Shown one piece after another: positions 1,222-15,983 of a stretch of 64,000 bases of DNA. The notes below the pieces were generated by a model. It made no database searches and had not been told where the DNA came from. It saw nothing but the letters and a program-made list of their open reading frames with translations. The stretch is from an uncultured Ruminococcus sp. GTDB taxonomy: Bacteria > Bacillota > Clostridia > Oscillospirales > Ruminococcaceae. Within the stretch, counting starts at the first letter, position 1, and each line of letters starts with the position of its first letter. The position numbers and the translations under genes are program-made. The stretch spans positions 1 through 64,000 of the forward strand of contig ONMB01000011.1 of assembly GCA_900318825.1 (NCBI GenBank), in the 5' to 3' direction.

Positions 1222-2178
1222 TTAATAGAACGTTGCTACTTCCTTCTCGGGGGCTGCGGAGTCTGTGAGTTCAAGCAGACGCAGAACAGGTCCTTTTCCG
1301 CGGTAGAACTTGTGCTTCTGCACCTTTATTCCAGCCCTTGCTATCACCCAGCCCTTGTCACGGACCTGTGACTCGTCACCGGCTTCAACTACGAACCAGC
1401 AGTACTGTATATCCTCAACGCAGCAGGTCATAACGCTCCTGCCGAGCGCAAAGGTGCCGCTTGGGAACTTCGGGTTGCGTGCAGCCTTGCCCTTGAAGGT
1501 GATGATCTTGCCGTCGTACTTCATCGGATCTTCCATGATATCGCGGTAGAAAACAGCGTAATCCTCGTCCGCGATAGTGAACTCCGGTGCTTCAACATCA
1601 TACGGGAGCGGATCCTCGATGTCGTCATATGCAACTGTACCGTCGGTATATTCGTAAGCCATTTCGCTTCTGCGGCTGACTCCGCGGACTATCTTGTGGA
1701 ACTCATTCGGATCCATAGACTTCTCAAAGCGGTTGAACACCGTCAGCTCGCATATATTCAGCTTATCCACAACGAGACTGCGCATATTGTTATTGTAATT
1801 GAGGAATGTCGAAGCGTCCACGAAAAACATTACCTGATAGATAGCCCAGCCCTCCGGCATAGCCTTGAAGAGGTCGTTCACGAGCCACATACCGTTATAC
1901 TCGATAACAACTCTCTCAGCGCGTGTTTCGTCAACGTACTTCTGGAGAGTTTCTGTCGTGAGCTCCTCCTTCTCCTCTATGGTGCGGAACTCAACGTTCT
2001 TTGAGGGATATTTCGAGGTATCATATTCCTCTATGCCCTCCTCGCAGACGAGAACAAGGGTGCGTTCTCCGCTGTTGAAACGCTTATCCTCGAGCGTTTC
2101 CTGTATGAACTTTGTCTTGCCTGATTCGAGAAATCCAAGAAACAGGTAGACAGGCATTTCCTGATCGTTCTGAGGCAT
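1222..2178 (-). CDS. CobW/G3E-like GTPase with C-terminal DUF1980-like domain
   Basis: The N-terminal part is a CobW-type P-loop GTPase: a Walker A segment GFLESGKT sits at about residues 12-19, and the central region keeps the general fold. The last 110 residues (YDGKIITFKGKA, RSVMTCCVED, then beta-strand-like sequence) resemble the OB-like C-terminal domain of YcgQ/TIGR03943 (DUF1980) proteins, normally found on a partner membrane protein. The CXCC metal motif of typical CobW proteins is not apparent. I chose the ATG at 2178, which has AAGGAG in front, over one at 2196 that overlaps the upstream stop as ATGA and has no ribosome site. It is translated after the His-rich CobW gene. A role in metal homeostasis is inferred from the partner. 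Confidence 0.75.
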   Translation of the reverse strand: MPQNDQEMPVYLFLGFLESGKTKFIQETLEDKRFNSGERTLVLVCEEGIEEYDTSKYPSKNVEFRTIEEKEELTTETLQKYVDETRAERVVIEYNGMWLVNDLFKAMPEGWAIYQVMFFVDASTFLNYNNNMRSLVVDKLNICELTVFNRFEKSMDPNEFHKIVRGVSRRSEMAYEYTDGTVAYDDIEDPLPYDVEAPEFTIADEDYAVFYRDIMEDPMKYDGKIITFKGKAARNPKFPSGTFALGRSVMTCCVEDIQYCWFVVEAGDESQVRDKGWVIARAGIKVQKHKFYRGKGPVLRLLELTDSAAPEKEVATFY

Positions 2179-2192
2179 ATTACCACTCCTTA

Positions 2193-3320
2193 TCATTCAG
2201 TGCGGAACAGCTTTGCGATAGCTTCCTCGTTTATCTTTGAACCGATAACACAAAGACGTCCGATAGTACCGGCGCTTCCTGTGCGGACGTCCGGAACTCC
2301 GGGAACATAGTCAAAGTGTATCCACTTGCCGTCCTGACTTGCTACTATGCCCTTTGCACGGAGGATAACGCCGTAGGTCTCCTCATCGCCGAGAGCATTG
2401 AGTATAGAGGTTATCTCGTCCTGAGTGTAGGAATTGGGAGTCTCTCTGCCCCAGCTTGTGAATACATCGTCAGCGTGGTGGTGATGATGTTCGTGATCGT
2501 GGTCGTGACAGCCGCAGGTGCAGTCCGGACCGTGATCGTGATGATGCTCGTGTTCGTCGTGGTCATGATGGTGGTCGTGGCAGCCGCAGGTGCAGTCCGG
2601 ACCGTGATCGTGATGATGTTCATGCTCGTCGTGGTCATGGTGATGATGCTCGTGCTCATGGTCGTGATCGTGGTGGTGGTGATGCTCTGCCTCCTCGAGG
2701 AGCTCCTTCAGCTCATCATCAAGAGTGTTCTTCTGAGTCATAGCGTCAACGAGCTGCTTTCCGGTGAGCTGATCCCACTCCGTTGTTACGACAGGCGCTG
2801 CGGGATTGAGCTCCTTGAGACGCTTTACACACTCGTCGATCTTATCCTCGGAAAGTCCGCCTGTATGGCTGAGGATAAGGCAGCTCGCATAGGTTATCTG
2901 ATTGTTGAAGAACTCGCCGAAGTTCTTCTGGTACATCTTGCACTTCTTTGCGTCAACAACTGTTGTGAAGCCGTCGAGCTCAACATCGTGAGCGTTTATG
3001 TTCTGAACTGCTCTTATGACATCGCTGAGCTTTCCTACGCCTGAGGGTTCGATGAGAATACGGTCGGGAGCATAGTCTGCAAGCACCTTTTCAAGAGCCT
3101 TGCCGAAGTCGCCTACCAGTGAGCAGCAGATACAGCCGGAGTTCATCTCCGTGATCTCTACGCCTGCGTCCTGGAGAAAGCCGCCGTCTATGCCTATCTG
3201 TCCGAACTCGTTCTCTATGAGGACCAGTTTTTCGCCCTTATAGCCCTCAGCTATCAGCTTTTTTATGAGTGTGGTCTTTCCTGCACCTAAAAAGCCTGAG
3301 AAAATCGTTATCTTTGTCAT
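2193..3320 (-). CDS. CobW/G3E family metallochaperone GTPase, His-rich
   Basis: A 375-residue G3E GTPase. Walker A is GFLGAGKTT near the N-terminus, ENEFGQIGID follows, and the metal-binding CXCC motif is present (GCICCSL, about residue 63). A middle segment of roughly 70 residues is almost entirely His, Asp, Glu and paired Cys, and includes a 24-residue unit repeated twice, followed by the CobW C-terminal domain. Such proteins deliver or buffer zinc, cobalt or nickel in the cytosol using GTP hydrolysis. An in-frame GTG at 3329 precedes the chosen ATG at 3320. The downstream CobW-like gene begins immediately after it, so the two are probably co-transcribed from the promoter at 3374-3403. The metal is not identifiable from sequence. 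Confidence 0.88.
   Translation of the reverse strand: MTKITIFSGFLGAGKTTLIKKLIAEGYKGEKLVLIENEFGQIGIDGGFLQDAGVEITEMNSGCICCSLVGDFGKALEKVLADYAPDRILIEPSGVGKLSDVIRAVQNINAHDVELDGFTTVVDAKKCKMYQKNFGEFFNNQITYASCLILSHTGGLSEDKIDECVKRLKELNPAAPVVTTEWDQLTGKQLVDAMTQKNTLDDELKELLEEAEHHHHHDHDHEHEHHHHDHDEHEHHHDHGPDCTCGCHDHHHDHDEHEHHHDHGPDCTCGCHDHDHEHHHHHADDVFTSWGRETPNSYTQDEITSILNALGDEETYGVILRAKGIVASQDGKWIHFDYVPGVPDVRTGSAGTIGRLCVIGSKINEEAIAKLFRTE
2509..2652. repeat. 72-bp tandem duplication inside the His-rich CobW gene
   Basis: Two adjacent 72-bp units (2509-2580 and 2581-2652) differ at only a few bases. Each encodes 24 residues with the pattern HGPDCTCGCHDH plus Asp/His runs, so each unit adds a Cys-X-Cys-X-Cys and several His ligands. 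Confidence 0.9.
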
Positions 3321-3373
3321 ACCAAGCACTTCTTTCTATATGATTATAATTGGTGTTTTGCACATCAGATTAT

Positions 3374-3769: not shown

Positions 3770-4046
3770 CATCAAAATGCTATGAAGGGAAATAAAGCCT
3801 GTCAAGGTCTCACAGAGAGCTGCCGCAAGGTGTAAGGCAGTATTCCGACACAGGAAACAGCTCCTCCCTGAGCAGCCGTTCCTAAAGCCGTTTCCCGGCA
3901 AGTAGGCGCGGACGGGCGCTCCCGTTACAGAGATATGCGTTGATCCGACGCAGACGAGTGGGCGTATTTCGCGTCAAGAAGAGTGGTACCACGGAGATCA
4001 TATGCAGCTTCGTCTCTTCCATACAGATGTATGGAAGAGATTTTTT
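3770..4046 (+). promoter_or_regulatory. T-box leader with terminator, upstream of leuA
   Basis: The diagnostic T-box sequence (TGGTACC inside 3981-3994) is followed by a 12-bp terminator stem (4013-4024 with 4029-4040) and six T residues. Upstream lies a stem-I-like region with AGAGAG and a GGTGTAAGGCAG segment. T-boxes read uncharged tRNA through a specifier codon and the NCCA end, and allow read-through when the amino acid is scarce. A Leu codon CTC at 3861-3863 lies where a specifier loop is expected, which would fit leuA, but I could not fold stem I reliably. This accounts for most of the gene-free stretch 3646-4094. Confidence 0.9.
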
Positions 4047-4094: not shown

Positions 4095-5756
4095 ATGAAA
4101 AATGCAGAAAAATATACAAGGCAGTTCTTTGAAGCTCCGCGTACAAAAATGAAATGGACGGAGCACTCCTACATAGACAAGGCACCGGTATGGTGCAGCG
4201 TTGACCTCAGAGACGGTAATCAGGCTCTCATCGCACCCATGAGTCTCGGAGAAAAGCTCGAATTCTTCGCTGAGCTCGTCCGTATCGGCTTCAAGGAGAT
4301 CGAGATAGGCTTCCCGGCAGCCTCCGACACGGAGTACGACTTCTGCCGCGCCCTCATCGAACAGCAGCTCATTCCGGACGACGTTACGATACAGGTACTC
4401 ACACAGTCCCGCGAGCACATCATCGAAAAGACCTTCGAGGCGCTCAAGGGCTGCAAGAACGCCATAGTCCACCTCTATAATTCCACCTCTGCCGCCCAGA
4501 GACAGCAGGTTTTCAGAAAAAGCAAGGAGGAGATCGTCTCCCTCGCCGTGAAAGGAGCGGAGCTCTGCAAGGAGTACCGCGAAAAATACGAGGGGAACTT
4601 CCGCTTTGAGTATTCCCCCGAAAGTTTCACAGGCACAGAGCCCGAATTCGCACTCGAGATCTGCAACGCCGTTCTCGACGTATGGCAGCCGACTCCCGAA
4701 GATAAGGTCATCATAAATCTGCCGGTAACGGTCCAGCTCTCGATGCCCCACGTTTACGCCAATCAGGTGGAGTATATGTGCGAGAACCTGCATTACAGGG
4801 AGAACGTCATAATTTCGCTCCACCCCCACAACGACCGCGGCTGTGCAGTTGCGGACACCGAAATGGGACTCCTCGCCGGCGCGGAAAGAGTCGAGGGAAC
4901 GCTCTTCGGCAACGGCGAGCGCACCGGCAACGTTGACATCATAACCCTCGCTATGAATATGTACACTCAGGGCGTTGATCCTGAGCTCGATCTCAGCGAT
5001 ATACCGTCGCTCACTGACTTCTACACGCGTCTGACCGGAATGACCGTCAACGAGCGCCAGCCCTACTCCGGAAAGCTCGTCTTTGCAGCATTCAGCGGCT
5101 CTCACCAGGACGCTATCGCCAAGGGCATGAAGTGGCGCGAGGAGACCGGCTGCAAGCAGTGGAACGTCCCATATCTGCCGCTCGATCCTGCGGACATCGG
5201 CAGAGAGTACGAGGCGGACGTTATCCGTATCAACAGCCAGTCCGGCAAGGGCGGTATCGGCTATATCCTCGAAACACGCTTCGGCTACGATCTTCCTAAG
5301 AAGATGCGCGAGAGCGTCGGCTACCTCGTCAAGGGTGTGTCCGACCGCTCACACAAGGAGCTCCTCCCGGACGATGTATTCACTATTTTCCGCGAGAATT
5401 ACATAAATCTGACCTCTCCGCTCAATATCAACTCCGCCCACTATGTTCAGCAGGACGGCATAGAAGCTACCGTTGATATGACCTACAACGGCAGACGGGC
5501 TTCCGCTACGAACACCGGCAACGGACGTCTCGATGCCGTAAGCAACGCCGTCCGTTCATACACCAACTTGGATTACAGCATAAACACCTATACCGAACAC
5601 GCTCTCGAGGTCGGATCGGCATCGAAGGCGGTCTCATACGTCGAGATAATCGGAAAGGACGGCAGGAGCTTCTGGGGAACAGGTATCGACAACGATATCG
5701 TTACCTCATCAATAAAGGCTCTTATCAGCGCGGTAAACAATATGCTCCGCAGTTGA
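4095..5756 (+). CDS. leuA: 2-isopropylmalate synthase
   Basis: A 553-residue enzyme that condenses acetyl-CoA with 2-oxoisovalerate, the first committed step of leucine synthesis. The N-terminal TIM barrel begins near DLRDGNQA (about residues 36-43, metal and catalytic residues) and contains SLHPHNDRG with the metal-binding HPH. A C-terminal regulatory domain (from about residue 420: NINSAHYVQQDGIEATVDM) normally binds leucine for feedback control. The sequence resembles the yeast/actinobacterial type (IPMS2) rather than the shorter E. coli type. The ATG at 4095 has GGAGG 7 bases before it; an in-frame extension starting at 4002 would lie inside the T-box terminator and is rejected. Expression is probably controlled by the T-box. 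Confidence 0.95.
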   Translation: MKNAEKYTRQFFEAPRTKMKWTEHSYIDKAPVWCSVDLRDGNQALIAPMSLGEKLEFFAELVRIGFKEIEIGFPAASDTEYDFCRALIEQQLIPDDVTIQVLTQSREHIIEKTFEALKGCKNAIVHLYNSTSAAQRQQVFRKSKEEIVSLAVKGAELCKEYREKYEGNFRFEYSPESFTGTEPEFALEICNAVLDVWQPTPEDKVIINLPVTVQLSMPHVYANQVEYMCENLHYRENVIISLHPHNDRGCAVADTEMGLLAGAERVEGTLFGNGERTGNVDIITLAMNMYTQGVDPELDLSDIPSLTDFYTRLTGMTVNERQPYSGKLVFAAFSGSHQDAIAKGMKWREETGCKQWNVPYLPLDPADIGREYEADVIRINSQSGKGGIGYILETRFGYDLPKKMRESVGYLVKGVSDRSHKELLPDDVFTIFRENYINLTSPLNINSAHYVQQDGIEATVDMTYNGRRASATNTGNGRLDAVSNAVRSYTNLDYSINTYTEHALEVGSASKAVSYVEIIGKDGRSFWGTGIDNDIVTSSIKALISAVNNMLRS

Positions 5757-5832
5757 CAGGTCAAAAGTGCACAAAGCAAGCTGTTGAAACTGTCCACAAT
5801 AACCAAATTAAATTTAAAAGGTGCGTTCCTTA

Positions 5833-5861
5833 TTGATTTTGTTATGATAAAGTGGTAGAAT
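5833..5861 (+). promoter_or_regulatory. Promoter of the ilv transcript
   Basis: TTGATT (5833-5838), a 17-base spacer and TAGAAT (5856-5861) precede the leader peptide by about 30 bases. It gives ilvB its own start separate from leuA. No convincing terminator is seen between leuA and this promoter. Confidence 0.6.
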
Positions 5862-5893
5862 ATATTATATTAACCAGTAAGGAGCGTACAATA

Positions 5894-6001
5894 ATGAGAT
5901 CGGTCTACATTTCCTCCGGTATCGTCATTATTATAGGCGCGGTCGTGAACGTCTCTGACCGCAGTCTCGTATCATTCTGCCCGAACGGCGCTCTTGCTTG
6001 A
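5894..6001 (+). CDS. ilv operon leader peptide (35 aa, Ile/Val-rich)
   Basis: A 35-codon reading frame has AAGGAG nine bases before its ATG. Residues 9-20 read GIVIIIGAVVNV; in total 5 Ile and 6 Val among 35 residues. It ends at a TGA 35 bases before an intrinsic terminator and lies directly upstream of ilvB. This is the layout of ribosome-mediated attenuation, where shortage of charged Ile- or Val-tRNA stalls the ribosome and prevents the terminator from forming. The peptide itself is unlikely to have another function. It is too short for most gene callers. The mechanism is inferred from sequence alone. Confidence 0.8.
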   Translation: MRSVYISSGIVIIIGAVVNVSDRSLVSFCPNGALA

Positions 6002-6079
6002 TCTATAACTACGTCATTTTAAGCAATGAAGTTCAGCTCCGGTCGCAGAATACCGGAGTTTTTTATTTTGTCAGAGACG
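5939..6079 (+). promoter_or_regulatory. Attenuator of the ilv operon: alternative RNA structures
   Basis: Four pairings can be drawn. A 1:2 hairpin pairs 5939-5944 with 5957-5962 over the Val codons. A 2:3 antiterminator pairs 5954-5961 with 6040-6049 with a two-base bulge. The terminator 3:4 pairs 6037-6043 with 6052-6058. In addition 5914-5922 is complementary to 6050-6058, and 5950-5959 is a perfect 10-base match to 6070-6079 beyond the terminator. A ribosome stalled on Ile codons 10-14 would cover segment 1 and favour 2:3, giving read-through. Confidence 0.7.
6037..6068 (+). terminator. Intrinsic terminator of the ilv attenuator
   Basis: CTCCGGT (6037-6043) pairs with ACCGGAG (6052-6058) and is followed by a T-rich run. 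It lies between the leader peptide and ilvB. Together with the promoter and leader peptide it accounts for the 375-base stretch 5757-6131. Confidence 0.85.
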
Positions 6080-6131
6080 TATAACAGTTACTCCGTCACT
6101 AACAACTTTTTGATAAAGGACAAGATTTTTT

Positions 6132-7871
6132 ATGATGATTTCAGGCGCTAAGATCGTTGTTGAGACTCTCATCGAACAGGGCTGCGACACCGTTTTCGGC
6201 TACCCCGGCGGTCAGGTCATCAACCTCTTCGATGAGCTCTATCTCGCAAGCGACCGCGTAAAACATATACTCACCGCCCACGAACAGGGCGCGGCTCACG
6301 CCGCTGACGGCTATGCAAGAGCTACCGGAAAGGTCGGCGTTGTCATAGCTACATCAGGTCCCGGTGCGACGAACCTCGTTACCGGCATCGCTACGGCTTT
6401 CCTCGACTCTGTACCGCTCGTCGCTATCACCGGAAACGTTCCGTGCAGCCTCATCGGACGCGACAGCTTCCAGGAAGTCGATATCGTCGGCGTGACTATG
6501 CCGATAACCAAGCATAATTTCATCGTCAAGGACATCGAGGAGCTCGCAGATACGCTCCGTATGGCGTTCAAGATAGCCAAGTCCGGACGTCCCGGACCTG
6601 TCCTCGTCGATATCCCCAAGGACATTCAGATCGCAAAGTGCGAATATGAGCCCAAAACCCAGCCGGTTATCCCGGCACCGATAGTTTACGCCCCCGAGAA
6701 CAAGCTCCGTCAGGCTGCTCAGATGATAGACGCAAGCGAGAGACCTTACATCTACTTCGGCGGCGGCGTTATCGCCGGAAAGGCTTCCGAAGCACTCATC
6801 GCTCTTGCCGACAGGATAGACGCTCCTATGGGCTGCTCGCTAATGGGACTTTCCGCAGTTCCCTCAGATCACCCGAGATTTCTCGGTATGCAGGGTATGC
6901 ACGGTCACTACGCTTCCTCTATGGCTGAGGACGAGGCTGACCTCGTTATCGCTCTCGGAGCGCGTTTCTCCGACAGAGCTACCGGCAATAAGAAACGTTT
7001 TGCTCAGAATTTCAAGATAATCCACATTGATATAGACGGCGCCGAGCTCAGCAAGAATATTCCTGCCGAACTCGCCGTTCAGGGCGATATCCGCGACGCT
7101 ATCGAGCGTCTCTGCGCTATGGTATCGGAGAGAAAGCTCCCCGAATGGGAAGCCCGCGTTGACGGTCTGCGCCTTGAGGAAATGGAGCGCACTAAAAATG
7201 CTCTCCAGCACTCCTATGAGAAGAACTGCGAAAGCTGCTCCGCTCCCTGCGACAAGTCGGATATCCCGGCTTCGGACAGGCTTGATCCCTACGGCGTTAT
7301 CGACGCTGTAAGCGAACACGCTCCCGAGGACGCTATCATCGTAACCGATGTCGGTCAGCACCAGATGTGGGCTGCTCAGCGCTACCCCTTCAGGAAGCCG
7401 AGGACCTTCCTCACAAGCGGAGGTCTCGGAACTATGGGCTTCGGAATGGGCGCTGCTATCGGCGCTTCCGCTGCAACAGGCAAGCGCACCGTACTCTTTA
7501 CCGGCGACGGCAGCTTCGGCATGAACCTCACAGAGCTCGCCACGGCAGTTACTCAGGGAACTCCCCTCGTTATCGTTATACTCAACAACGGCGTTCTCGG
7601 AATGGTGCGCCAGTGGCAGACTCTCTTCTTCAACAAGCACTACTCCAACACCACTCTCCACCGCAAGACCGACTTCGTGAAGGTCGCAGAAGCATTCGGT
7701 GCCAAGGGCTTACGCTGCTCGGATATGAAGGAGCTCGAAACAGCTCTCACAGCAGCCTTTGCAGACAGCGGCACCACAGTCATCGACTGCATCATAGACT
7801 GTGATGAGTTCGTACTGCCCATGCTTCCTCCCGGCGGTTCTATCGACAACATAATTACCGAGATAAAGTGA
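6132..7871 (+). CDS. ilvB: Acetolactate synthase, large (catalytic) subunit
   Basis: A 579-residue thiamine-diphosphate enzyme making acetolactate or acetohydroxybutyrate, the first common step of Val, Leu and Ile synthesis. Visible parts are the N-terminal PYR domain with the catalytic Glu in AHEQGAAHAADGYARATG, the central FAD-binding domain, and the C-terminal PP domain with GDGSFGMNLTELATAV and ILNNGVLGMVRQW, which bind ThDP/Mg. The length is normal. The start offers two adjacent ATGs; AAAGGA lies 11 bases upstream. The regulatory subunit ilvN follows after 10 bases. Confidence 0.97.
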   Translation: MMISGAKIVVETLIEQGCDTVFGYPGGQVINLFDELYLASDRVKHILTAHEQGAAHAADGYARATGKVGVVIATSGPGATNLVTGIATAFLDSVPLVAITGNVPCSLIGRDSFQEVDIVGVTMPITKHNFIVKDIEELADTLRMAFKIAKSGRPGPVLVDIPKDIQIAKCEYEPKTQPVIPAPIVYAPENKLRQAAQMIDASERPYIYFGGGVIAGKASEALIALADRIDAPMGCSLMGLSAVPSDHPRFLGMQGMHGHYASSMAEDEADLVIALGARFSDRATGNKKRFAQNFKIIHIDIDGAELSKNIPAELAVQGDIRDAIERLCAMVSERKLPEWEARVDGLRLEEMERTKNALQHSYEKNCESCSAPCDKSDIPASDRLDPYGVIDAVSEHAPEDAIIVTDVGQHQMWAAQRYPFRKPRTFLTSGGLGTMGFGMGAAIGASAATGKRTVLFTGDGSFGMNLTELATAVTQGTPLVIVILNNGVLGMVRQWQTLFFNKHYSNTTLHRKTDFVKVAEAFGAKGLRCSDMKELETALTAAFADSGTTVIDCIIDCDEFVLPMLPPGGSIDNIITEIK

Positions 7872-7881
7872 GGTGAGAGGT

Positions 7882-8385
7882 ATGGATAATAAATTTGTCA
7901 TAGCCGTTCTCGTTTCCAACATATCCGGCGTACTCTCAAGAGTTTCGGGAATGTTCACGCGGCGCGGCTTCAACATCGACAGCCTCACTGTGGGCGAGAC
8001 CGAATCCAGCGGTTTTTCACGAATAACCATATCCTTCCACGGCGACGAGGATATCAAGGAACGTATCCTCCAGCAGCTCAAGAAGCTCCACGACGTCAAG
8101 GAAGTCGAGGTCCTCAATACAAACGAGACCGTTATCCGTGAACTGCTCCTCATCAAGGTGAGGAACAAGTCAGAGTCCAGACAGGACATAATGACGGCAG
8201 TCGAGATCTTCCGCTCGAAGATAGTGGACTACTCCCCGACAGCCCTGATCTGTGAGCTCACCGGTGAGACCTCCAAGATCGACGCCTTCATCGAGCTCCT
8301 CAAGCCCTGCGGCATCATGGAGATGTGCCGTACCGGTATAGTAGCGGTCGAGCGCGGCGAAAACTGCCTCAAGACCGTAAAATAA
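7882..8385 (+). CDS. ilvN: Acetolactate synthase, small (regulatory) subunit
   Basis: A 167-residue protein with an N-terminal ACT domain (VLVSNISGVLSRVSGMFTRRGFNIDSL, about residues 7-33) that binds valine for feedback inhibition, and the conserved C-terminal domain ending in MEMCRTGIVAVERG. The ATG at 7882 has AGGTG just upstream; an in-frame GTG at 7873 is less likely. It lies 10 bases after ilvB and the two products form the holoenzyme. Confidence 0.96.
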   Translation: MDNKFVIAVLVSNISGVLSRVSGMFTRRGFNIDSLTVGETESSGFSRITISFHGDEDIKERILQQLKKLHDVKEVEVLNTNETVIRELLLIKVRNKSESRQDIMTAVEIFRSKIVDYSPTALICELTGETSKIDAFIELLKPCGIMEMCRTGIVAVERGENCLKTVK

Positions 8386-8457: not shown

Positions 8458-9507
<1,050 letters not shown>

Positions 9508-9633: not shown

Positions 9634-11298
9634 ATGAGCGGAAATTATTTCTGCGAAGGAGTTGAAATGGCGTCCCAGCGCTCACTTTTCAACGCACTCG
9701 GTTTTACTAAAGAGGAAATGAACAGACCTCTCGTCGGCATCGTATCGTCCTACAACGAGATAGTGCCCGGACATATGAATATCGACAAGATAGTCGAGGC
9801 TGTAAAGCTCGGCGTTGCAATGGGCGGCGGCACCCCTGTGGTCTTCCCTGCTATCGCTGTATGTGACGGCATCGCTATGGGACACAAGGGTATGAAATAC
9901 TCCCTCGTTACCCGTGACCTCATTGCCGATTCTACTGAATGTATGGCTCTCGCGCACCACTTCGACGCACTCGTTATGGTGCCAAACTGCGACAAGAACG
10001 TTCCCGGACTCCTTATGGCTGCGGCTCGTATCAACGTGCCGACCGTATTCGTAAGCGGCGGTCCTATGCTTGCCGGTCACGTCAAGGGACAGAAGACCAG
10101 CCTCTCCTCTATGTTTGAGGCTGTCGGCGCTTACACTGCCGGAAAGATCTCTGCTGAGGAGGTCGAGGAATACGAGAACAAGACCTGTCCTACCTGCGGC
10201 TCGTGCTCGGGTATGTACACCGCAAACTCTATGAACTGTCTCACCGAGGTCCTCGGTATGGGACTCAGAGGCAACGGTACTATCCCTGCCGTTTATTCCG
10301 AGCGTCTCAAGCTCGCAAAGGAAGCCGGTATGCAGGTAATGGAGCTCTACCGCAAAAATATCCGTCCGCTCGACATCATGACCGAAAAGGCTTTCTACAA
10401 CGCTCTCACTGCTGATATGGCACTTGGCTGCTCGACCAACAGTATGCTCCACCTGCCCGCTATCGCAAACGAGTGCGGCATAAAGATCGACCTCGACATG
10501 GCAAACGAGATCAGTGCAAAGACTCCTAACCTCTGCCATCTCGCCCCTGCCGGTCACACATATATGGAGGATCTCAACGAAGCCGGCGGCGTTTACGCCG
10601 TTCTCAACGAGCTCGCTAAAAAAGACCTCATCAACACTGAATGTCTCACCTGCACCGGCAAGACTGTCGGTGAAAACATCAAAGGCTGCATCAACAAGGA
10701 TACAAACACTATCCGTCCCATTGATGATCCGTACAGCGAGACCGGCGGAATAGCCGTTCTCAAGGGCAATCTCGCTCCCGACCGCTGCGTAGTAAAGAGG
10801 AGCGCAGTTGCTCCGGAAATGCTCGTCCACAAGGGACCTGCGCGTGTATTTGACAGCGAGGAAGAAGCTATAAAGGTCATCTACGAGGGCGGTATCAATC
10901 CCGGCGATGTTGTAGTTATCCGCTATGAAGGACCTGCCGGCGGTCCGGGTATGCGTGAGATGCTCTCACCTACCTCCGCTATTCAGGGTGCAGGACTCGG
11001 CTCGACAGTTGCCCTCATCACAGACGGACGTTTCTCCGGCGCTACACGCGGTGCGGCTATCGGACACGTTTCGCCCGAGGCTGTGAACGGCGGTACTATC
11101 GCCTATGTCAAGGAAGGCGACATCATCTCGATAGATATCCCCAATTATTCGATAAACCTTGAGGTCTCCGACGAGGAGCTCGAGGAGCGCAGAAAGACTA
11201 TGCCTATCAAGCACAAGGAAGGCATAACAGGCTACCTCAAGCGCTATGCACAGCAGGTATCCTCCGCTGACAAGGGTGCGATCATCAACAGACGTTAA
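9634..11298 (+). CDS. ilvD: Dihydroxy-acid dehydratase
   Basis: A 554-residue Fe-S dehydratase converting dihydroxyisovalerate to 2-oxoisovalerate. Cluster cysteines are visible in PNCDKNVPG (about residue 119) and [19 protein letters not shown] (about residue 187), and the C-terminal domain has [12 protein letters not shown] and [11 protein letters not shown]. The ATG at 9634 has GAGGTG 7 bases before it. It continues the ilv run and precedes leuC by 53 bases. Confidence 0.97.
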
Positions 11299-11351: not shown

Positions 11352-12620
11352 ATGAGTATGACAATGACGCAGAAGATCCTTGCGGCTCACGCAGGACTTG
11401 ACTCGGTACAGGCAGGACAGCTTGTCCTCGCCGGTCTCGACCTCGTCCTCGGCAACGATATCACGTCGCCGGTAGCTATCAAGGAATTCGCAAAGCTCGG
11501 CAAGGACAGCGTGTTTGACAGAAACAGGATCACTATGATAATGGATCACTTTGCTCCCAACAAGGACATAAAGGCTGCGGAGCAATGCAGAATGTGCCGG
11601 GATTTCTGCGGAGAAATGGACATAACTCATTTCTATGACGTCGGCGAAATGGGCATCGAACACGCCTTTATCCCCGAAAAAGGTCTTGCGACTGCCGGTG
11701 ACCTCGTCATCGGAGCAGACTCCCACACCTGCACATTCGGCGCTCTCGGAGCTTTTTCCACAGGAGTCGGCTCGACCGACATGGCTTGCGGAATGGCTAC
11801 CGGCAAAGCGTGGTTCAAGGTGCCGGCTGCCATGAAGATAGAGCTGAAAGGCAGTCTGCGCAGGTACGTTTCCGGCAAGGACGTTATCCTGAATATCATC
11901 GGCAGGATAGGCGTTGACGGAGCTCTCTACCGCTCTATGGAGTTCACAGGAGAGGGACTCGCCTCGCTCAGTATGGCTGACCGTCTCTGCATTGCGAATA
12001 TGGCTGTCGAAGCCGGTGCAAAGAACGGCATATTTGAAGTCGACGTCACCACCCTCGCCTACCTGAAAGAGCACGGCGCGGCCGAACCGAATGTCTTTAA
12101 GGCTGACGCGGACGCTGTTTACGAGGAAGTCCTCACCGTTGACCTTTCACAGACAGAGCCGACTGTCGCTTTCCCGCATCTTCCGGGAAACGCAAGGACT
12201 TTCAGCGAGATAGGCGACATAAAAATAGATCAGGTAGTCATAGGCTCCTGCACAAACGGCAGGCTCGAGGACCTTATCGCAGCCGCTGAGATACTCAAGG
12301 GACGCAAGGTCGCAAAGGGAGTCCGCACGATAATCATACCGGCTACCCAGCAGATATACCTCAGAGCTATGGAAATGGGACTGCTGAAAATTTTCATCGA
12401 GAGCGGCGCGGCTGTTTCGACGCCTACCTGCGGACCGTGTCTCGGAGGACATATGGGTATACTCGCTGCCGGTGAACGCGCTGTCGCTACCACGAACCGC
12501 AACTTCGTAGGACGTATGGGACACGTTGACTCTGAAGTATACCTCGCAAGCCCTGCGACCGCGGCAGCCTGCGCAGTAACAGGAAGAATAACAAGTCCGT
12601 GGGAGGTGATGGGCGTATGA
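11352..12620 (+). CDS. leuC: 3-isopropylmalate dehydratase, large subunit
   Basis: A 422-residue aconitase-family subunit of the short (archaeal/clostridial LeuC/HacA) type. The [4Fe-4S] cysteines are in IGSCTNGR (about residue 298) and [13 protein letters not shown] (about residue 359), plus the first in [13 protein letters not shown]. The stop overlaps the leuD start (ATGA at 12617-12620), so translation is coupled. It isomerises 2- to 3-isopropylmalate together with LeuD. Homoaconitase or citraconate activity is possible in this family, but the neighbours point to leucine. Confidence 0.95.
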
Positions 12621-13111
12621 AATACACCGGAAATGCCATAAAATACGGCGACAATATCGACACTGACGTCATCATACCAGCCCGCTACCTCAACACCAGC
12701 GACCACAAGGAACTCGCCTCGCACTGTATGGAGGACATCGACAAGTCATTCGTATCGCGCGTAAAGCAGGGCGACATCATAGTTGCCGGACAGAATTTCG
12801 GCTGCGGCTCTTCACGCGAACACGCTCCCATTGCCATAAAGGCAAGCGGTATTTCCGTGGTCATCGCCAGGAGCTTTGCGCGTATATTCTACCGCAACGC
12901 CATAAATATCGGGCTCGCCATAGTGGAGTGCCCCGAAGCCGCTGAGAACATCTCAGAGGGCGACATGATCGAGGCTGACCTCGACAACGGCATAATACAC
13001 AACATCACCACCGGCAGGGACTTCCGCACGGAGCCCTTCCCGGAGTTTATACAGAATATAATCGAAAACGGCGGTCTTATGCAGTCTGTTGCAAAGGGAC
13101 TTATCCGCTGA
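12617..13111 (+). CDS. leuD: 3-isopropylmalate dehydratase, small subunit
   Basis: A 164-residue swivelling-domain subunit with [13 protein letters not shown] near the N-terminus and the substrate-binding [12 protein letters not shown] loop. The short length matches the archaeal/clostridial LeuD type. The ATG overlaps the leuC stop and has GGGAGGTG upstream within leuC; an in-frame extension to 12599 is unnecessary. Confidence 0.95.
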
Positions 13112-14843: not shown

Positions 14844-14909
14844 CAAATTAGTAAAGTACCGTATCCCGATACAGTCTATTCAATAAAAATCAACATACAG
14901 GAGGTGCAT

Positions 14910-15983
14910 ATGGAACTCAATATCGCTCTGCTCCGCGGAGACGGCATAGGTCCTGAGATCGTGGACAGCGCCGCCGCAGTCCTCGAAAAAACGGCATCTG
15001 AGTTTGGACACAGGATATACTTCACACCATATCTCATCGGCGGTGCAGCCATAAACGCCGTCGGCAAGCCTCTGCCGCAGGAGACCGTGGACGGCTGTCT
15101 CGCATCAGACAGCGTTCTGCTCGGAGCTGTGGGCGGTCCGGAATGGGACGACCTCCCCGGTGACCGGCGTCCGGAAAAGGCTCTGCTCGGTATAAGGGCA
15201 GCTCTCGGACTCTACACAAATCTCCGCCCCGCAAAGCTCTACCCGTCGCTCAGGAGCGCTTCTCCGCTCAGGGACGAGATAGTCGGAAGCGGCTTTGACA
15301 TCATGATAGTCCGCGAACTCACGGGCGGTATCTACTTCGGCGAAAGAGGCTACCGCGAGGGAAGGTTCGGCAGAGAGGCTTTTGACACCGAGGCTTACAG
15401 CGTCACCGAGATCGAACGCATAGGACGCATTGCCTTTGAAACAGCTATGAAGCGCGGCAGACGCCTTTGCAGCATCGACAAGGCAAACGTTCTCGAGACC
15501 TCGCGGCTCTGGCGAAAGACTATGCACACTATCGCTGAGGAGTACCCGGAGGTGGAGTACAGCGATATGTTCGTGGACAACGCCGCTATGCAGCTCGTCC
15601 GCTGTCCGGGACAGTTTGATGTTATAGTCACGTCGAATATGTTCGGCGACATACTCTCAGACGAAACCTCGCAGATAACAGGCTCGATAGGTATGCTCGC
15701 AAGCGCTTCTCTCGGCGAGGGAAAGCGCGGTATGTATGAGCCTATCCACGGTTCTGCACCGGATATAGCCGGTCAGGATAAGGCAAACCCCATTGCAGCT
15801 ATACTCTCAGGAGCTATGATGCTCCGGTATTCGTTCGGTCTTTCGGAAGAGGCTGAGCGAATCGAAAAAGCGGTGGACAAAGTCCTCGAAGAAGGCTGGC
15901 GCACCGCGGATATCATCGGAAACAGCGAGGGAGCTCCCCTCACCTGCACAAAAATGACAGAAAAAATAATCGAGGTAATATAA
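14910..15983 (+). CDS. leuB: 3-isopropylmalate dehydrogenase
   Basis: A 357-residue isocitrate/isopropylmalate dehydrogenase-family enzyme that oxidises and decarboxylates 3-isopropylmalate. It has [11 protein letters not shown] at the N-terminus, the substrate loop [12 protein letters not shown], the metal site [11 protein letters not shown], and [16 protein letters not shown] for NAD binding. The ATG at 14910 has GGAGG five bases upstream; an in-frame GTG at 14904 lies within the ribosome site. Two lipoprotein genes separate it from leuCD, and a DUF815 ATPase follows after two bases. Confidence 0.96.

Follow-up and report, generated by a model that had tools for sequence, protein, structure and literature searches.

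Organization of the ilv-leu locus

The analysed stretch of DNA, called the window here, comprises 64,000 nucleotides of an uncultured Ruminococcus sp. (contig ONMB01000011.1) and carries an ilv-leu operon on its forward strand (Table 1). The gap between leuA and ilvB (5757–6131) holds a promoter, a ribosome site, a short leader ORF and a terminator. At this place an earlier note, made from the sequence alone, had proposed a leader-peptide attenuator for ilvB with a 35-codon ORF behind a good ribosome site, and both features were confirmed. The ORF encodes SGIVIIIGAVVNV (also given as MRSVYISSGIVIIIGAVVNVSDRSLVSFCPNGALA) and ends with the stop codon at 5999–6001. On the reverse strand, two neighbouring ORFs (1222–3329), one with long His/Asp repeats, are taken by us to resemble COG0523-type metal-chaperone GTPases.

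Table 1. Position of genes, leader elements and RNA segments in the window
Feature	Position	Strand	Basis or remark
T-box leader ahead of leuA	3773..4020	+	RF00230, 90.4 bits, E 3.4e-20, full-length; gathering score 93
leuA, 2-isopropylmalate synthase	4095..5756	+	Pfam HMGL-like, IPMS_D2, LeuA_dimer (searched from 4098); start 4095 chosen
Promoter TTGATT-17-TAGAAT	5833..5861	+	read in sequence; kept before leaders
Ribosome site TAAGGAG of leader ORF	5878..5884	+	read in sequence
Leader peptide ORF, 35 codons + stop	5894..6001	+	Ile/Val at codons 10–14, 17, 18, 20
P1 hairpin inside leader ORF	5935..5967	+	5′ arm 5935–5944, 3′ arm 5957–5967
Segment 2, antiterminator 5′ strand ATTCTGCCCG	5974..5983	+	alignment, predicted folds
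Intrinsic terminator 3:4 + T tract	6035..6069	+	hairpin 6035–6060; terminator scan, covariation, RNAalifold
Segment 3, antiterminator 3′ strand, within terminator arm and loop	6040..6051	+	covariation, predicted folds
Segment 5 GTCAGAGACGT	6070..6080	+	complement of 5949–5959 (P1 loop and start of 3′ arm)
ilvB, acetolactate synthase large subunit	6132..7871	+	Pfam TPP_enzyme N, M, C; name from operon context
ilvN, acetolactate synthase small subunit	7873..8385	+	Pfam ALS_ss_C, ACT_AHAS_ss
ilvC	8473..9507	+	Pfam KARI_N, KARI_C
ilvD	9634..11298	+	Pfam ILVD_EDD_N
leuC	11352..12620	+	Pfam Aconitase; name from operon context
leuD	12599..13111	+	Pfam Aconitase_C; name from operon context
leuB	14904..15983	+	Pfam Iso_dh; name from operon context

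Scanning the 64-kb window with Rfam 15 gave no match over the gathering threshold. The T-box leader ahead of leuA scores just under this threshold and is therefore missed by a scan at the Rfam cut-off; its specifier, read from the alignment, is probably CUC for Leu. For the leuA-ilvB gap no RF00230 match was obtained, the sub-threshold list included. T-box matches occur in all 125 genomes of the genus (over the cut-off in 123), and the genome of the window has eleven, one of them being that ahead of leuA in the ilv-leu operon. Among 20 related loci scanned, eight including that of R. flavefaciens 007c have a T-box, located directly before ilvB or near the presumed leuA start (positions partly inferred), while five loci of the genus lacking the leader (L009, L022, L023, L029, and L030) showed none in the stretch examined. 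The earlier note had stated that Firmicutes usually control such genes by T-boxes or CodY. No CodY match was found in the 125 genus genomes, many of them incomplete, by a search that detected the controls in B. subtilis and L. lactis.

Conservation of the leader

For detection of further leaders in the 125 genus genomes, a peptide profile built from fifteen leaders read upstream of ilvB and a covariance model (R1) were used. The profile matched 79 genomes (E up to 0.01), and R1 matched 83 (E up to 0.001), including a few weak or partial matches, which leaves 42 genomes without an R1 match. The best match per genome was fetched from the peptide-positive genomes, giving 77 leaders; of the unfetched genomes, G114 is supported by the covariance model and G005 is not. 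One of the 77 has a run of N inside and is excluded from all counts on 76 leaders. After removal of near-copies, 54 of the 76 were kept for alignment, and 47 were used for the covariance model. The ilvB tree comprises 75 loci, since two of the 77 were too short.

In all 77 cases the next gene is ilvB, located 85–335 bases past the leader stop, and leuA lies upstream of the leader in 55 within the stretch examined. The promoter has a spacing of exactly 17 bases in 74 of the 77 (16–18 were permitted in the scan), its end lies a median of 33 bases ahead of the leader, and an SD-like sequence precedes 73 of the leaders. The Ile/Val-rich character noted for the leader in the window is kept in relatives: at least three consecutive I/V/L residues within residues 7–18 were found in 75 of the 77 leaders, and the runs consist of 232 Ile, 72 Val, and 2 Leu. 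Clustering of these residues is modest, with at least five in six residues in 23 of 76 leaders compared to 12.6% in same-residue shuffles. Variability by codon position did not separate the coding half of the leaders from segment 2.

An ilvB match is present in 42 of the 46 peptide-negative genus genomes, and 30 upstream regions of this group were read. Two of them (L008 and L204) contain a clear leader missed by the profile, and in six ilvB starts only 40–47 bases past leuA; weak covariance-model matches were found in the peptide-negative genomes G080, G130, and G020. Three genus members (L009, L022, and L208) have a TTGATTTT promoter-like site upstream of ilvB and no leader of this kind.

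The closest ilvB genes among named genomes are those of Ruminococcus MAGs and of R. flavefaciens 007c. In the family, the peptide profile matched five of 297 genomes, four of the same genus (that of the window included) and one doubtful, in a 340-residue frame. The covariance model matched 19 of the 297 at E up to 0.01, namely five of the same genus, G153 from another genus (3.0e-5) and 13 at 0.001–0.01. An origin of the leader within the genus only, which was also considered, was dropped because the RNA model thereby finds an orthologue-like leader before ilvB in G153. By eye, this locus (L223) shows a leader MKSVILTGFVIINS..., the TTGATTTT site, TTTCTGCCG, a terminator, and then an ilvB-like ORF.

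Conserved RNA helices

Covariation analysis of the leader in related genomes, as the earlier note had suggested, revealed paired changes in P1, in the antiterminator 2:3 and in the terminator 3:4. The tests were run on the 54 non-redundant leaders against 500 shuffles, which relatedness of the leaders can by itself exceed. In P1, 91.0% of cells are paired and six of ten pairs have changed on both sides; the covariation score (0.337 vs 0.249 in shuffles) and the number of double-change cells (37 vs 17.1) were reached in none of the 500 shuffles, while the number of pairs with double changes (29/500) and of pair types (180/500) were weaker measures. For 2:3, 92.0% of cells are paired with 14 double-change cells vs 2.8 in shuffles (0/500); the weaker measures here were pairs with double changes (1/500) and pair types (23/500). 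For 3:4, 91.0% of cells are paired with 16 double-change cells vs 5.2 in shuffles (0/500). Controls slid by 1–3 columns paired at most 58.8% (P1), 48.8% (2:3), and 55.2% (3:4) of cells. RNAalifold, used unguided, predicted ten pairs, of which six belong to P1 and four to the terminator. A further hairpin (P3), located between segment 2 and the terminator, was not retained as part of the switch: 73.8% of its cells are paired, a value reached in 8/500 shuffles, and the other measures show no excess.

No string in the leader alignment is better conserved than segment 2 (TTCTGCC). Of the 76 leaders, 67 read it in one frame and nine in another, and since its sequence or pairing is kept despite the other frame, it is an RNA signal. 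Compensatory changes in 2:3 include TTCTGTC/GACAGAA and CTGTGCCC/GGGCGCAG.

The terminator that had been noticed after the leader is borne out by its hairpin, the T tract and the covariation of 3:4. Between 3600 and 6200, terminator-like sites number 7 vs 2.5 in shuffles, so that the terminator scan taken alone is weak evidence. When the RNA stops short of segment 4, 2:3 is part of the best predicted fold in 49 of the 54 leaders and missing in five, and for complete RNAs the predicted fold contains 3:4 in 45 and lacks it in nine; the leader in the window is predicted to form 2:3 when truncated and 3:4 when complete. Alignment and predicted folds thus both indicate that antiterminator and terminator exclude each other.

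Of the mutually exclusive pairings 1:2, 2:3, and 3:4 originally proposed, 2:3 and 3:4 covary and form alternative folds, but a 1:2 pairing sharing strand 2 is not conserved. P1 and 2:3 have no conserved strand in common, and the P1 3′ arm is separate from segment 2 in the alignment. With the conserved antiterminator strand lying outside the 3′ arm of the first hairpin, a strict 1:2/2:3/3:4 chain is not conserved and the textbook chain is incomplete. An antiterminator formed by GACCG (P1 3′ arm) and CGGTC (terminator) would be possible in the window and was rejected, as it is not conserved in the alignment.

Proposed mechanism of attenuation

Taken together, the comparison of leaders supports the conserved leader ORF, its promoter, and the helices P1, 2:3, and 3:4, and makes it highly probable that the element is a ribosome-mediated transcription attenuator of ilvB-ilvN-ilvC-ilvD-leuCD sensing charged tRNA-Ile and tRNA-Val. 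Within this model, the start site, the occurrence and direction of stalling, and the function given to P1 are inferred. Transcription would start just past 5861, and the leader would be translated at once. Under a shortage of Ile or Val, the ribosome would stall in the IVIII/AVV codons; since Ile/Val codons 10–14 lie just ahead of the P1 5′ arm, a stalled ribosome would cover this arm and leave segment 2 free. Segment 2 could then pair with the emerging segment 3, thereby preventing the terminator, and ilvB would be read. When both amino acids are ample, the ribosome would pass over segment 2 toward the stop codon, 3 would pair with 4, and transcription would end at about 6060–6069. We estimate that a ribosome at the stop codon would cover just the end of segment 2. 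P1 is probably a polymerase pause hairpin coupling the polymerase to the ribosome. The model does not account for two loci (L181 and L186) in which segment 2 lies past the leader stop. In the operon as a whole, the T-box probably monitors Leu for leuA, and the ribosome Ile/Val for ilvB.

The same RNA switch might respond to general translation speed, or to stalling of the ribosome by the nascent peptide, rather than to charging with Ile and Val. This reading draws on the conservation of SGIVIII-GAV as a peptide and on the presence of SFCP in most leaders. The recurrence of SFCP is however explained by conservation of the RNA strand TTCTGCC, which is kept in the other frame in the nine leaders mentioned above, and the residues of the runs are the operon's own products, which renders the reading improbable. 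Control of the terminator by a ligand- or protein-binding RNA of the riboswitch type, for which translation would be unnecessary, would fit P1 as a strong covarying hairpin; with the Ile/Val frame kept, no Rfam family at cut-off, and neither a riboswitch nor a T-box in the sub-threshold list of the leader stretch, we give it very little credence. That the ORF encodes a functional small hydrophobic protein next to incidental helices and an incidental terminator, as its conserved start, SD sequence and hydrophobic core could suggest, is extremely improbable in view of a C-terminal half varying in frame and length while the RNA is kept, covarying helices, a Pfam search of the leader peptide without match, and the adjoining ilvB in 77 of 77 cases.

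A complementary segment downstream of the terminator

Past the T tract, the window contains an 11-base segment (segment 5) which is an exact complement of the P1 loop region. Perfect complementary runs of at least nine bases occur in 17 of 76 loci. With G-U pairs allowed, segment 5 is found in 21 of the 76, each case being seldom matched when the stretch concerned is shuffled, and the remaining 55 have no significant complement of the P1 loop past the terminator. Its sequence changes with the P1 loop, as seen from the partners GTCTCTGAC/GTCAGAGAC, GTCACTGAC/GTCAGTGAC, GTCGCTGAC/GTCAGCGAC, GTCTTGGAC/GTCCAAGAC, and GTCCCGAAC/GTTCGGGAC. For the 54 leaders, pairing with the own segment has a mean of −14.0 kcal/mol vs −11.6 kcal/mol for swapped segments (0/20000 permutations as low), an effect carried by about a third of the loci, many others being no better, or worse, than the swapped average. 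The predicted fold of 5946–6090 (z −4.18) includes the helix of segment 5 with the P1 loop.

Segment 5 would be present in read-through RNA only and could there pair with the P1 loop; our guess is that it holds a leader that has been passed in its on-form. We tentatively propose, at somewhat less than even chances, a five-segment attenuator: after read-through, segment 5 would capture the P1 loop, replace P1 and fix the form of the leader, thereby adding a second step of control (mRNA stability, or independence of any later translation of the leader) in an operon with T-box and Leu at leuA, and ribosome and Ile/Val at ilvB.

Segment 5 could also be a functionless by-product of a template-switch mutation, i.e., an inverted copy of the P1 loop, which would leave the attenuator unaffected. 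Its patchy distribution is in line with such an origin: on the ilvB tree it requires at least ten changes, eight of them forced by well-supported branches, which implies frequent loss or repeated origin; most loci, the 55 given above, are without a significant complement, and the sister of the window (L130) has only a partial, decayed-looking copy. Against it, segment 5 always lies 4–22 bases past the terminator hairpin in the 21 loci and is always directed versus the P1 loop, and self-pairing on average surpasses swapped pairing in the permutations. It also adjoins the terminator in L143, L111, and L112, with a distance of 153 or 162 bases to ilvB, and is therefore apparently not tied to translation of ilvB. 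We regard the by-product as a possible, rather doubtful origin. If segment 5 does work as proposed in the five-segment attenuator, control in attenuators can extend to a step past the terminator that the textbook scheme does not include.

Comparison with known systems

The attenuators of the E. coli ilv and trp operons consist of control codons, a terminator and an antiterminator, and their first hairpin shares a strand with the antiterminator. To our knowledge, they have no segment past the terminator. The Ruminococcus leader has the same three components, and P1, in contrast, shares no strand with the antiterminator. Since a shared strand 2 is a trait of the trp scheme and unneeded for attenuation itself, the Ruminococcus element would be a variant, and its variant traits are two: the first hairpin is not part of the 1-2-3-4 chain, and segment 5 lies past the terminator. 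T-boxes (RF00230) likewise regulate BCAA genes in Firmicutes, and the operon has one before leuA, but the ilvB leader is not an RF00230 match.

The earlier note knew of no described case in this group. In print, ilv attenuators are known from Proteobacteria, Actinobacteria, and Bacilli, and so already from Firmicutes, whereas none was described among the papers listed by literature searches on Ruminococcus or Clostridia, with subscription journals mostly outside coverage. The ilv-leu leader-peptide attenuator Rli60 of Listeria monocytogenes was demonstrated by mutants (PMC5864092), leader-peptide attenuation of ilv-leu acts at ilvD in S. aureus, with predictions for Lactococcus and Streptococcus cited there (PMC5794164), ilv leader-peptide attenuation was predicted for Actinobacteria (PMC1262725), and ilv attenuation was tested by reporter in Corynebacterium (PMC10272879). 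Two further papers note His leader peptides in bacilli and their exchange with T-boxes (PMC2965389), and other ilv-linked motifs, Veillonella ilvD and Leptospira ilvB (PMC8632094).

Rli60 is likewise a Firmicute case in which a BCAA operon is preceded by a leader peptide together with terminator and antiterminator. It has a 13-residue peptide before ilvD and CodY above, whereas the Ruminococcus element has 35 codons before ilvB, a leuA T-box, and segment 5, with no CodY found; this contrast is drawn from the published description. The S. aureus ilvD attenuator shares leader-peptide control of ilv-leu in a Firmicute and differs, again by its published description, in a Leu-rich peptide together with CodY, compared to Ile/Val in the Ruminococcus leader. 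The Corynebacterium ilvB-II, ilvB-OMG and Leptospira ilvB motifs (PMC10272879) have a BCAA-rich uORF before ilvB as well, ilvB-II with a terminator stem; they belong to other lineages, and this contrast too is drawn by description.

From sequence comparison, the Ruminococcus ilvB leader is thus well supported as a new lineage of a known mechanism. It is plausible as the main control of Ile/Val synthesis for a group of Clostridia without CodY found, and would serve one half of a single operon while a T-box serves the other. Its dozens of natural variants, with an antiterminator strand independent of the reading frame, allow constraint on the RNA to be distinguished from constraint on the peptide.

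Candidate leaders outside the genus

Upstream of ilvB, 75 of the 76 loci L035–L110 were scanned for generic BCAA leaders, two of them named Ruminococcus sp., resulting in 1/75 hits vs 0/750 for crude dinucleotide-block shuffles. The scan missed two candidates seen by eye. In the Lentisphaerae MAG SIG80 (L056, 2500–3000), two tandem BCAA-rich ORFs lie upstream of ilvB with a terminator-like hairpin after each (the second by eye), and in Oligosphaera ethanolica (L045, 2798–2959) a GTG-start Leu/Ile/Val-rich ORF without clear ribosome site is followed by a terminator and then ilvB (R1 33.3 bits). In Oribacterium sinus (L055, 2836–2983), ilvB is preceded by a leader MQNIWLAIIMILAVIIVLHDNVCLRNATFER that has its own ribosome site, and by a terminator.
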